A DNA stretch of 12,578 nucleotides. Origin: Anaerolineales bacterium (lineage in GTDB: Bacteria; Chloroflexota; Anaerolineae; 4572-78; J111). The DNA lies in assembly GCA_012032575.1 (NCBI GenBank), contig JAAUSP010000183.1:1-12578 (forward strand), in the 5' to 3' direction. The translations under genes and the position numbers were made by a program. The notes beneath the pieces are model-generated. The model worked only from the letters and a program-made list of their open reading frames with translations. It was not told where the DNA came from and searched no databases. Positions 2,570-12,038 of the stretch are shown in pieces (positions within the stretch are counted from its first letter, which is position 1; each line of letters starts with the position of its first letter).

Positions 2570-3947
2570 ATGACCGTCCAACACGCTATTCAAACCTACC
2601 ACGATTTATTGACCGCCAGCGTTGCGGCCGAGTCGCAGGGCGAGTTAGAGGCCCAACAGCAGCGGCGCGGTTTGTTCTTTGGCGAGCGGCCTCTGTGTAC
2701 CGTTTTGCGGCCCCGCTTTTTGACGCCGGCCCAATACCGCTTTATCCAACGGCGCACCCGCACCTTATTACGCGCTTTTGATAAAATTCACCAGGCCGGC
2801 CTGGCCGATAAAACCTTCCGCGCCCAATTTGATTTGACCGATTGGGAAGAGTCCCTGGTGCAGCACGACCCCGGCTTTCGCCCCGCCATTCCCATCTCCC
2901 GCCTGGATGCTTTTTTATCCCTCACCCCCAACCCCTCTCCCAGAGGGAGAGGGGAGAACTTTATTTCACCGAATACAACGCTGAAACCCCCGCCGCTTCC
3001 GCCTACAACGATGTTCTGACCGATGTTTTCTACGCCCTGCCGGTGATGCAGCACTTTTTGCGCCGCTACCAGGTCTTTTCGCTGCCGGCCCGGCATGGCG
3101 TGCTGCATGCCCTGCTGGCCGCCTTTCGCCAGTGGCGCGGTACCACCGAAGCGCCGCGCATCGCTATTTTGGATTGGCGCGAAGTGCCGACCTACAGCGA
3201 GTTTGTCCTGTTTGAGTCCTATTTCAAATCCCAGGGCCTGGAGTGCATTATTGCCGATCCCCGCGAGGTGGAATACCGCCAGGGCGGCCTGTATGCCGGC
3301 GATTTTCACATCACCCTCATTTACAAGCGGGTGCTTATCAGCGAGTTAATCGAGCGGGGCGGCATGGATCATCCGGTAGTGCGGGCAGTGCTCGATGGCG
3401 CTGTCTGCATGGCTAACCCCTTTGTTTGCAAAATGCTTTATAAAAAGGCCAGCCTGGCCGTTTTGAGCGACGAACGCAACGCCCATCTGTTCAATCGGGA
3501 GGAGCGCCAGGCCATCGGAGAGCATATCCCCTGGACGCGCCGGGTGGAAGAGCGCCGCACCGAATACGCCGGCCAAACGGTTGACCTGATTCCCTTCATC
3601 CACCAGCAGCGCGAACGGCTGGTTTTGAAGCCCAACGACGATTACGGCGGGCGCGGCATTGTGCTGGGCTGGACGGTTGATGATACTGCCTGGGCCGAAG
3701 CCGTGCAGATTGCCCTGTCCACGCCCTACATTGTGCAGGAGCGCGTGCCCATTCCCAGCGAACCCTACCCCAGCCTGACCGAAGGGGGCCAGCTTCACAT
3801 TTTCGAGCGTATGCTCGACACTGCGCCCTTTGTTTTCACAGCGACAGCGTCTACGGCTGTCTGACCCGCCTCTCCACCGCCGCGCTGCTCAACGTCACCG
3901 CCGGGGGCGGCTCGACGGTGCCGACCTTTCTGGTGACGAGACGATAA
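2570..3947 (+). pseudogene. Circularly permuted type-2 ATP-grasp protein, interrupted by a palindromic repeat and a frameshift
   Basis: Three reading-frame segments together reconstruct one protein of the COG2308 / DUF404-DUF407 circularly permuted ATP-grasp family. Segment one (2570 to about 2917, ATG with TGAGGT upstream) gives MTVQHAIQTY... through FGERPLCTVLRPRFLTP to SRLDAFL. Segment two (from about 2953) resumes with GELYFTEYNAETPAAS and includes LKPNDDYGGRGIVLGW, the nucleotide-binding part, and IVQERVPIP. Segment three (from about 3840) gives [19 protein letters not shown] and [16 protein letters not shown], the conserved C-terminus, with its stop at 3945-3947. Break one is a palindromic insertion of about 38 bp (length 2 mod 3). 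Break two looks like loss of one C near 3837 (VFHSDSVYG restored by TTCCAC). Members often sit with other ligases, peptidases or transglutaminases in peptide-modification loci. As written, no full-length product is possible. Confidence 0.8.
2917..2957. repeat. REP-like G/C-rich palindrome inserted in coding sequence
   Basis: A C-rich stretch (CCCTCACCCCCAACCCC at 2920-2936) is followed by the hairpin CCCCTCTCCC-AG-AGGGAGAGGGG. It is the kind of small palindrome that turns up in short hypothetical proteins as LTPNPSPRGRGE or HPQPLSQRERG; both translations occur here, in adjacent frames. The flanking protein halves (SRLDAFL and GELYFTEYN) adjoin it directly, so its insertion into the permuted ATP-grasp gene is visible without needing a reference. 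The family is recognised from memory of how often this motif occurs; the copy number in this genome is unknown. Confidence 0.8.
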
Positions 3948-3959
3948 TTGGATTTACAA

Positions 3960-5989
3960 ATGGACAAACGCACCATAACCGCCGAAGACCTTTATCAATT
4001 TCAACTCATCTCCAACGGTGAGATTTCGCCGGATGGGCAACATGTTGTTTTTACGTTGCAGCGGGTGGACCCCAAAACGCACAAGGAGTCAAGTAATCTG
4101 TGGGTCGTCCCCACCGAAGGCGGCTCGGCCCGCCAGTTTACCTACGGCGACCAGCTTGACCGCCGGCCCAAATGGTCGCCCGATGGCCGGGAGATTGCCT
4201 TTCTGTCTAATCGCGGCCCGGCCCGCCAGACCCAGCTTTACCTCATCCCCTTTTACGGCGGCGAGGCCCGCCCACTGACCCAACTCAAAGGCGAATTTGG
4301 CGGCTTTGCCTGGTCGCCCGATGGCCGGCAGTTGGTTTGTAACTTTCGCAAAAAAGATTTGGAAGCCATCGAACGGGAGGAGGATGAACAGAAGAAACAA
4401 CTCGGTGTGGTGGCGCGGCACATCACCCGGATTGTTTTTAAGCAGGACGGCTACGGCTTTCTGCCCCAGGAACGCTGGCACATCTGGACCATTGATGCCG
4501 CCACCGGCGAAGCCCGCCAACTGACCGAAGGCGACCTGTACGACGAACTCGAACCCACCTGGTCGTCCGACGGCCAGCACATCCTCTTTCGTTCCAACCG
4601 CACCGGCGACCCGGACCTGAATTGGGATGTGACCGACCTGTACCTGATTCCGGTCAGCGGGGGCGAATTACGTGTCATTCCTACCCCCATTGGCCCCAAA
4701 GAAACGCCGGTCTTCTCGCCCGATGGCCGCTGGATTGCCTATTACCAACTGGGCGGACGCTCCGACCGCTGGCGGCACACCAACCTGTGGCTCGTTCCCG
4801 CCGACGGCCAGGGCGAGGCCCGCAACCTGACCGCCCCCCACGAAACGCTAGCGACGCACGCCACCATCAACGATATGGGCCGCATGAGCACCATGCCGCC
4901 CACCTGGTCGCCCGACAATCAGACGATCTATTTCCAGGCCAGTGAACGAGGCAACACCGTGCTCAAATCTATCAGCCTCGATGGAGCCAGGGTGTGGAAC
5001 ATTATTGACTCTTACGGCGCGGTCGAAGAGTTCAAATTTGACCCAACCCACACCCGGCTGATCTACCTGCACGGCACCATGACCGATCCCGGCCAAATCT
5101 GGCTGCGCGACCTGAAAAGCCACCAGGCTGGCCCGCTGACCCACTTCAACCAAACGCTGCTCGACGGGCTGGAGTTGGGTCAGGTCGAGGAGGTCTGGTT
5201 CAAGGGCGGGGAGGGCAACGATCTACAGGGCTGGATTCTCAAGCCGCCCGGCTTCGACCCGGCCCGGCGGTATCCCTCGATCCTGCAAATTCACGGCGGG
5301 CCGCTGGTCCAATACGGCAACTTCTTTATGCACGAATTTTATTTTTTGGCGGCGCAGGGCTACGTGGTCTACTTTTGCAATCCGCGCGGCGGCTGGGGTT
5401 ACGGCGAGGCGCACGCCCGGGCCATTTACAACGATTGGGGCGGGGCCGACTACGCCGATCTGATGGCCTGGGCCGACTGGGTTGAGCAGCAGTCCTACAT
5501 TGACCCGGCCCGTATGGGCGTGACCGGCGGCAGCTACGGCGGTTTTATGACCACCTGGATCATCGGCCACACCGACCGCTTCCGGGCGGCCGTGACCCAG
5601 CGCAGCGTCAGCAATATGCTCAGCATGGACGGCTCCAGTGACCTGGCCTATCGCTTCCACGCCCTGTTTGGCGCGGAGAAACATGCCTGGGAAGATTTTG
5701 ACAACTACTGGCGGCAGTCGCCCTTAAAATATATTTGGCCAACGCCAAAACGCCCACCCTGGTCATCCACAACGAAGAGGACCTGCGCTGCGAGATCGAG
5801 CAGGGTGAGCAGATTTTTATTGCGTTGAAGAAGCTGGGGGTCGAAACCGAGCTGGTTCGCTTTCCCGGCGAGCCGCACGGCATGTCCCGCGATGGCCGCA
5901 CCGACCGGCGGATTGTCCGGTTGAACCATATTTTGCGGTGGTTTGATCGGTATTTGAAAGAGGGGAACGACTCAGCCCAAGGTGATTAG
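3960..5989 (+). CDS. S9 family peptidase (prolyl oligopeptidase / acylaminoacyl-peptidase-like), frameshifted
   Basis: A serine oligopeptidase of about 675 residues if the slip is repaired, a usual size for the family. The N-terminal half is a TolB/PD40-type beta-propeller with repeated WSPDGR-like blades (SPDGQHVVF, SPDGREIAFLSNR, SPDGRQLV, SSDGQHILFRSNR, SPDGRWIAYY, SPDNQTIYF). The C-terminal hydrolase domain contains QIHGGP, NPRGGWGYGE and the nucleophile GGSYGG (Ser525 counted from ATG 3960, codon 5532-5534). Asp (HNEEDLRC, codon 5780-5782) and His (EPHGMSRDG, codon 5876-5878) lie in another frame; the switch is near 5728-5735 (SPLKYI / ANAKTPTLV), equal to a lost T in a T-run or a 2-nt gain. 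No signal peptide is seen, so it is likely cytoplasmic. I prefer ATG 3960 to the in-frame TTG at 3948, because MDKRTITAEDLYQ is the family N-terminus. It starts 12 nt after the permuted ATP-grasp stop, so cotranscription is likely. Confidence 0.85.
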
Positions 5990-5995
5990 ATAAAT

Positions 5996-6051
5996 GCGTG
6001 TTGCGTGTTGCGTGTTGCGTCTTCCGTTAATCTTACGCAACACGTAACACG
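5996..6051. repeat. Tandem heptamer GCGTGTT with hairpin between convergent genes
   Basis: Three perfect GCGTGTT units (5996-6016) and one variant GCGTCTT (6017-6023) are followed by a complementary run. Positions 6004-6020 pair with 6035-6051 (17 positions, one G-T) around a 14-nt loop. It lies between the peptidase stop (5989) and the stop of the convergent SecD-head gene (6099), so a stem forms in either transcript. It may shield 3' ends or aid termination, but no clear U-tract follows. Confidence 0.78.
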
Positions 6052-11319: not shown

Positions 11320-12038
11320 TTACTGACCTTCGTTCTGGTCTGGCGCGGTCAGGGCTTGACGCAGCGCCTGGGCCATCCGTTCCGGGCCGATGACTTCGGC
11401 CAGGGCGCGTAAAACATTCGGCTGTTCGGCCCACAGCCACTCAACCCGCAGCCAGAAACCCGGCAGTACGGTAGAGCGATAAATCCCATCAGCCTCAACC
11501 GGCACAGATTGATACTGGCCTTGTTCGTCCAACCGGTAAAACAAGGCCGCCGGCGCTGAGGACGATTGTCAATAATCCAATACTCCGGCACCCCCCCGGC
11601 CTCGTACTCATCAAATTTATCCACCCGGTCGCGATGGGTGCTATCGTCAGAAACAACCTCGATAATTAAATCGGGAGGGCCAATCACTCGCGCCGTTGTC
11701 AGCCGTTCCAGGTGCGCTTTAGCAATGAACATTAAATCTGGTTCACGCGAGTTACCTGCAAGGGTTAATTTCAATTCAAAAGGAGCTATTCTCAATCGTC
11801 CCAAATCAAAAACGGAACTAAACAAATTGAGGAGTTGATATAAAAATTCTATTACAGTCTGATGAGGATTTAAGGGTGGCATAAAAATAATCACTTCTCC
11901 ATTGACCCATTCGGCGTGAATATCTTCATTGGCCCAGGCTAGAAATTCATCGTAGGGCATGCTTTTCTTGAACTCTTGGGGAAGGCTGCCTGTTTCTGGG
12001 GCCATTACCTCAGGTGTCAAGATAGTTTGAGCGGCCAT
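11320..12038 (-). CDS. Uma2 family (DUF820) restriction-endonuclease-fold protein, frameshifted
   Basis: A protein of about 239 residues if repaired. The PD-(D/E)XK-like core is visible: PYDEFLAWA (28-36), AEWVNGEVI (42-50), REPDLMFI (98-105, Asp101), PPDLIIEVVSDDST (121-134, Glu127), Lys141, and the Uma2 signature GGVPEYWIIDN (148-158). The frame then runs RRRPCFTG. Restoring one G near 11548 (GGCGGGCC) gives RRRALFYRLDEQGQ and a C-terminal region (LPGFWLRVEWLW) typical of the family, with its stop at 11320. The ATG has a perfect AGGAGGT 5 nt before it. Uma2 proteins occur in many copies in cyanobacteria and Chloroflexota, and their role is unknown. Base composition is more AT-rich than the neighbouring metabolic genes, consistent with transfer or relaxed constraint. 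Confidence 0.82.

Follow-up and report, generated by a model that had tools for sequence, protein, structure and literature searches.

A right-truncated C-rich palindrome in an ATP-grasp gene of an Anaerolineales bacterium, and C-rich palindromes beside DUF559 nuclease genes

Introduction

How does a short palindromic repeat come to lie within a conserved protein-coding gene, and what might have carried it there? The question is raised by a stretch of 12,578 nucleotides from an Anaerolineales bacterium (assembly GCA_012032575.1, contig JAAUSP010000183.1), which we refer to as the window. A preliminary description, made from the letters of the window, pointed to a C-rich palindrome inside one of its genes and took the entry of such repeats into genes to be a question of interest, a judgment that we share.

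Palindromes within genes are already in print. Short palindromic REPs, of the GTAG and CGTC superfamilies, occur in many copies, some of them in ORFs of unrelated proteins, and Rickettsia palindromic elements of about 150 bp persist in frame in many unrelated genes (PMC3733652 and PMC10969869, respectively). As for the nuclease family that figures below, one paper places DUF559, a PD-(D/E)XK nuclease, in the EDxHD homing endonuclease family (PMC9403480), and another reports DUF559 in a Vsr-like nuclease (PMC12907096); the basics of homing endonucleases are treated in PMC3943268.

Results

A truncated palindrome in an ATP-grasp gene

The gene that contains the palindrome is listed in Table 1 together with the other features of interest. 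Its homologues P0001–P0014 are proteins 76–95% identical, some of which carry a precomputed PF14403 assignment and are labelled circularly permuted ATP-grasp. We compare the window with two relatives, Anaerolineales H5_CFX5 (locus L001), which is the closest genome found (87% DNA identity over the ATP-grasp gene), and H5_CFX7 (locus L002). The L001 protein matches the Pfam model CP_ATPgrasp_2 at E 2e-5, under Pfam's cut-off, and the pieces of the window gene alone matched no Pfam family.

Table 1. Features of the window, with positions counted from its first letter.
Feature	Position	Strand	Basis
Circularly permuted ATP-grasp type 2 gene (PF14403 family)	2570..3947	+	homologues P0001-P0014; alignment to L001/L002
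One-base gap relative to both relatives (cause of frame shift)	2909..2916	+	alignment to L001/L002
C-rich palindromic element, right-truncated	2919..2954	.	fold; full unit in L001
Second one-base gap in the same gene, relative to both relatives	3833..3840	+	alignment to L001/L002
Empty site in S9-type peptidase gene	4650..4692	+	L001 and L002 occupied

The element consists of an outer left arm, CCCTCACCCC (2919-2928), followed by a perfect 10-bp stem (2932-2941 paired with 2945-2954) around a 3-nt loop (2942-2944). The hairpin at 2932-2954 is the sole one in the window with a stem of at least 10 bp and a loop of 3-8 nt, and such a stem is present in 1 of 20 first-order simulations of the window. 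The element folds only modestly better than its composition would predict (z -1.87, with 10 of 200 shuffles equally good). With this perfect stem and outer arm lying within a conserved gene, the earlier claim of a palindrome inside conserved coding sequence holds.

At the same place, and in frame, the ATP-grasp gene of L001 carries a full palindrome of about 50 bp, whose termini, CCCTCACCCC...GGGGTGAGGG, are terminal inverted repeats such as MITEs possess. The window copy is 36 nt long and, unlike a homing endonuclease cassette, holds no nuclease gene. Relative to the relatives it is missing 15 nt of the right arm, the right terminus of the family among them. The length of about 38 bp first proposed for the inserted unit is therefore not that of an intact unit.

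Single-base gaps at 2909/2910 and 3836/3837 divide the gene among three reading frames. The element had been said to shift the frame by 2; the shift comes instead from the base missing at 2909/2910, upstream of the element, whose own loss is a multiple of three and keeps the frame. Accordingly, the downstream frame of the window reads ..FFIPHPQPLSQRERGELYFTEYNAE.., in register with intact homologues. At the second gap, most of the 14 aligned homologues read FVFHGDSVYG or one other 10-residue string. The frame shift is a separate one-base event, whether a reading error or slippage. Since frame-changing differences from both relatives occur in several conserved genes (in coding stretches at 32, 3836/3837 and 5736, besides 2909/2910), the sequence accuracy of the window is likely to be low; the alternative is that the ATP-grasp gene may be decaying. 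By eye, there is perhaps another frame change at 11545-11570, where an apparent Uma2-type gene is spread over two ORFs.

We measured the loop at the element site, between two conserved strands, in 148 of the 157 ATP-grasp proteins listed by two homologue searches. It is 7-8 residues long in 130 of the 148, and 11-31 residues long in the 14 closest homologues, ten of which have, by eye, element peptides in frame, such as PHPQPLSQGERG or SPLPDGEGPGVR. In P0005, for example, the loop VPHPQPLSQREKGALR has 16 residues, the same length as the window loop in the downstream frame. Because of these long loops and in-frame peptides, we conclude that the palindrome of the window was inherited and is a copy, truncated on the right, of a unit of roughly 50 bp placed in a predicted turn. 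In the AlphaFold prediction for the L001 protein the element falls between strands 109-117 and 135-142, and pLDDT drops below 50 at residues 122-131 and, near the C-terminus, 445-450; the element is thus predicted to add a short, disordered peptide in the turn between two predicted strands. The full palindrome of H5_CFX5 and the element peptides of the closest homologues suggest that the insertion common to these relatives either predates the split of the species or has recurred at one site.

The site had also been expected to give the exact borders of the inserted unit. It does not, because the loop is variable and is lengthened in all 14 closest homologues; no close relative with an empty site at the ATP-grasp position was found. 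At the in-gene sites compared, the loops are too variable for the base-exact empty site that a comparison of target-site duplications needs.

A dispersed family in related genomes

The expectation of a dispersed family of C-rich palindromes was borne out. Genome counts use a strict hairpin pattern, CCCTCTCCC-N{2,20}-GGGAGAGGG; a pattern with a three-base spacer misses the four-base spacer of the window's own copy. Of the relatives found, the closest two have genomes (G001 and G002) with 50 and 22 hairpins of the strict pattern, versus 3 and 1 for the reversed pattern. Sixty of them were examined, 40 of the 50 in G001 and 20 of the 22 in G002; the G001 remainder comprises five in a separately scanned contig, C6, and five that overlap or adjoin a hairpin taken. 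Long open frames hold 20 of the 60, a number that does not give the proportion of insertions in frame, because the selection of open frames favours in-frame copies.

When 19 of these 20 in-gene ORFs were scanned against Pfam, 16 had a match at E 0.001 (15 above the curated cut-off), and in seven the matched domain spans the element (FemAB, TMEM260-like, SBP_bac_3 twice, M20, bMG10 and PALP). That is, like the Rickettsia elements, the palindrome lies in frame in several unrelated protein genes. Its presence at a given site varies between genomes. TrpB has the element in G002 and lacks it in G001 (91-93% identical, with a loop shorter by 10 residues) and in others; FemAB has it in G001 and lacks it in G002 and others; and the M20 peptidase has it in G001, shows an element-like stretch followed by a broken frame in G002, and lacks it in four other genomes.

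Outside long frames there are 41 copies, namely the other 40 and L163, which is counted in both groups. Many intergenic copies among L123-L182 are composite leaders, in which a CCAGCGAC/GTCGCTGG pair and a C-rich hairpin stand before the ribosome-binding site. These leaders have CGTC inside and mostly one orientation, and several start and end, by eye, with AGGAG. A further form, a double hairpin about 110 bp long, is seen by eye at L128, L130, L135, L140, L143-L145 and L147, with related flanks that include GCGAATTTTCATTATC in several. Another genome, G003, has 145 strict hairpins in 4.4 Mb, many of them in a longer element starting like GTATATCAAGATTTGGG; of 20 copies examined there (L301-L320), one lies within a long ORF.

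A palindrome of another family, 33 bp long (AGACCTGACAGGT...ACCTGTCAGGTCT, of the form AGACCTGACAGG(T)..), lies in frame in the S9-type peptidase gene of L001 (8913 onwards) and L002 (7104 onwards). Palindromes of the same form occur in the Type ISP genes of G001, G002 and G011, and their arms differ in concert. The window also contains intergenic palindromes of simple repeats (CAGTAGAC.., GAGGCG.., GCGTGTTGC..) at 563-620, 1459-1518, 2476-2557 and 5995-6050.

DUF559 genes bounded by C-rich palindromes

The Pfam scan of in-gene copies revealed in G001 a Type ISP restriction gene interrupted by a DUF559 gene, which C-rich palindromes flank left and right. DUF559 matches listed for 41 relatives number 38, of which 30 loci form our first set. 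C-rich motifs stand on both sides at 8 of these 30, and at least two motifs in all at 1 of 90 other loci.

A second set was drawn from 251 genomes of the phylum, in which 109 DUF559 matches reach E 1e-20 or better. We tested 89 loci, several from one genome in some cases; the rest are three second matches in tested stretches and 17 unfetched, two of which are those of G001 and belong to the first set. The measures and cut-offs for the second set were picked after the first had been seen. Hairpins with a stem of at least 9 bp within 350 nt occur on both sides at 38 of 89 loci versus 0 of 110 offset controls (Fisher p 2e-16), and on any side at 60 of 89 versus 13 of 110 (p 3e-16); direct repeats between left and right flanks occur at 36 of 89 versus 1 of 110 (p 5e-14). 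The offset controls are weakened by the fact that they probably fall largely in coding DNA.

A fairer control is provided by loci of Y1_Tnp genes, the RAYT type of transposase, which have hairpins and direct repeats of their own. From the first genome set 34 such loci were fetched and six left out, their flanks being missing or short. Within 470-nt flanks, 8 of the remaining 28 have hairpins on both sides and 15 have direct repeats. Neither feature alone can thus be called specific for DUF559; only the C-rich class is. C-rich hairpins flank the gene on both sides at 32 of 89 DUF559 loci, 0 of 110 offset controls and 0 of 28 Y1_Tnp loci, and on any side at 53 of 89, 6 of 110 and 0 of 28, respectively. 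Within 350 nt, hairpins of any kind are absent at 29 of the 89 DUF559 loci, and C-rich hairpins at 36. As a predictor of palindrome number, DUF559 copy number is weak: over 41 genomes hairpin and DUF559 counts correlate at rho 0.27 (p 0.09, not significant), and four genomes with at least 14 hairpins have no DUF559 match.

Beyond the phylum, ten DUF559 loci were read on plasmids of Cyanobacteriota, Deinococcota and Pseudomonadota. Eight of them have a C-rich hairpin (stem of at least 8 bp, within 350 nt) on one side or more, two of these eight on both; the other two loci have repeats between their flanks. C-rich palindromes beside DUF559 genes are thereby seen in four bacterial phyla. On the Deinococcus plasmids L501, L502 and L507, from three species, the DUF559 gene stands at different places of the same hpa cluster, and each time a C-rich hairpin lies to one side of it or to both.

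At three loci (L334, L335 and L347) DUF559 adjoins intein blocks, for which the Pfam intein matches, at E 3e-5 to 2e-4, fall under the cut-off. At L455 and L459 it stands beside intein blocks recognized by motif only. The hosts of such arrangements include DNA methylase genes. Among solved structures, a DUF559-like protein is 3hrl (E 5e-22). At the level of the family, then, we find a nuclease gene bounded by palindromes of the same kind, as in a homing cassette.

Empty, naked and loaded sites

Three host genes were compared site by site. In MetH, a DUF559 cassette occupies a single site in G059, G069 and G086; the site separates the pterin-binding part from the B12-binding one, and each gene with its cassette forms one open frame. 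Of 30 MetH loci fetched, three have these cassettes, 25 have neither cassette nor C-rich hairpin, one could not be read by motif, and one (G261) is a contig that begins in a palindrome at the site, so that a naked palindrome was seen among the 30 only at a contig end. In G059 and G086 both cassette ends are units in direct orientation, CCCTCA(C/T)CCC...GGG(G)(A)TGAGGG, and they fall within a few bases of conserved host codons; in G069 the outer left arm is missing from the left unit. The ATP-grasp unit of H5_CFX5 has the same termini as the MetH cassette units.

Type ISP genes carry cassettes at one site in four genomes. In G003 and G038 the cassette lies in one open frame with the domain matched on both sides, in G001 the gene is spread over two frames, and in G092 the assignment is by motif only. 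Of 11 other Type ISP sites read, six have no long palindrome and five have a palindrome of 31-37 bp and of other sequence, several with arms differing in concert; DUF559 is absent from these. Since palindromes of other sequence occur at the same site where DUF559 is missing, the loop may simply be tolerant.

In DUF1156 genes the site compared follows the motif KKDNK, which reads RKDNK in G246. A naked C-rich palindrome stands there in G001 and a cassette in G121; G246 shows neither, its own cassette lying at another place in the gene. Identity between the G001 and G121 proteins is 30-36%, and theirs is the only pair of naked and loaded sites with C-rich palindromes that was found. Occupied and empty alleles of the same site are therefore seen in MetH, Type ISP and DUF1156 genes, in comparisons between species.

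Discussion

We lean, by a little, towards reading the naked palindromes in genes as solo or non-autonomous forms of DUF559 cassettes. The mechanism would run as follows. The DUF559 nuclease would cut at or beside a palindrome site, and repair would then copy the cassette in; recombination between the two direct palindrome units could later delete the nuclease gene and leave one palindrome behind, in the way that a retroelement leaves a solo LTR. The ATP-grasp copy would be one of these solo units, or else a non-autonomous one that the same nuclease had spread, and would now be decaying in a tolerant loop.

A broader proposal, to which we give somewhat less than an even chance, is that the C-rich palindromes mark the boundaries of a single class of mobile element, in which a gene for a homing-type DUF559 nuclease stands between two direct copies. 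The cassette would be read through without stops, so that first the whole cassette and then the solo palindrome could persist in frame in genes like MetH, no splicing being involved; in-gene palindromes like that of the window would be the solo forms. The strongest points against a DUF559 origin are the weak correlation of copy numbers, the four palindrome-rich genomes that lack DUF559, the 29 hairpin-less loci, and the ATP-grasp family itself, in which no DUF559-bearing homologue was found among the best 120 listed (lengths 448-491).

Some of these points favour a different account, in which the palindromes spread by another route and accumulate wherever loops and gaps tolerate them, where DUF559 merely settles, and are not derived from cassettes at all. 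The 33-bp family speaks for it as well, being present at the same Type ISP site and in the S9 peptidase loop with DUF559 absent. We nevertheless regard this account as rather unlikely, since the MetH cassettes start and end close to palindrome units, their flanks are direct repeats, and C-rich hairpins are strongly specific for DUF559 over Y1_Tnp loci.

It is improbable that selection keeps the palindromes as a functional feature of RNA or protein, such as a leader hairpin, an attenuator or a useful loop. Their placement is suggestive, in that 24 of the 41 copies outside long frames stand directly upstream of a ribosome-binding site and start codon; the in-gene peptide, however, differs in length and sequence among relatives and is predicted to be disordered in the one case folded, and neither the window nor any of four loci, five sources in all, gave an Rfam match.

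Mobilisation as REPs, by a RAYT or another Y1 transposase, is less probable still. Y1_Tnp genes are present in 28 of 41 genomes, and GTAG-type REPs are reported in Chloroflexi and within ORFs (PMC3733652). Against this, Y1_Tnp counts do not track hairpin counts over the 41 genomes (rho 0.13, p 0.43), two genomes with 29 and 14 hairpins (G018 and G008) have no Y1_Tnp match, C-rich hairpins are absent within 350 nt of all 28 Y1_Tnp loci, where the flanking repeats of a RAYT gene would be expected, and neither GTAG nor CGTC, the REP tetranucleotides, was found at the element ends of the in-gene copies read directly (window, L001 and L002). The RAYT-like transposase that had been suggested as a candidate is accordingly not supported by these counts. 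Finally, a recent frame-breaking insertion, as first read from the two frames of the window gene around the element, has practically no chance of being right, since alignments show the element in frame at the same place in relatives and the missing base outside it, and since P0005 has an in-frame insertion of equal length, an observation that the preliminary description had itself named as refuting its reading.

It is useful to set the elements beside known systems. They resemble the GTAG and CGTC REPs as short palindromes of many copies, some in ORFs of unrelated proteins, and differ in their C-rich arms, in the absence of the tag beside the in-gene copies compared, and in a link to DUF559 and not to RAYT. 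The Rickettsia elements are likewise found in frame in unrelated genes, but they are about 150 bp long, whereas those described here measure about 50 bp, occur in Chloroflexota and are linked to a candidate nuclease. MITEs, too, are short and dispersed and have terminal inverted repeats (PMC10969869); no matching transposase was found for the present elements. With the EDxHD homing endonucleases (PMC9403480 and PMC3943268) the DUF559 cassettes share the placement of a nuclease gene at common sites of conserved genes and, at some loci, the adjoining intein blocks; here, however, the cassettes are bounded by direct palindromes, and the MetH, Type ISP and DUF1156 hosts have no Pfam intein match. 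No link between DUF559 and palindromes was found in the literature searched, which was covered mostly by title and the start of the abstract and left most subscription journals outside, and its novelty is unproven.

For the question of how C-rich palindromes spread, and why genes retain some of them, the association with DUF559 supplies a candidate enzyme, the MetH cassettes give borders to within a few bases, and the sites form a series of empty, naked and loaded states; together these make the question testable. If the preferred reading is right, many 'intergenic repeats' and odd Pro- or Gly-rich peptides in annotated proteins (LTPNPSPRGRGE, PHPQPLSQGERG) may share one source, and homing nucleases can live in genes that have neither intron nor intein.
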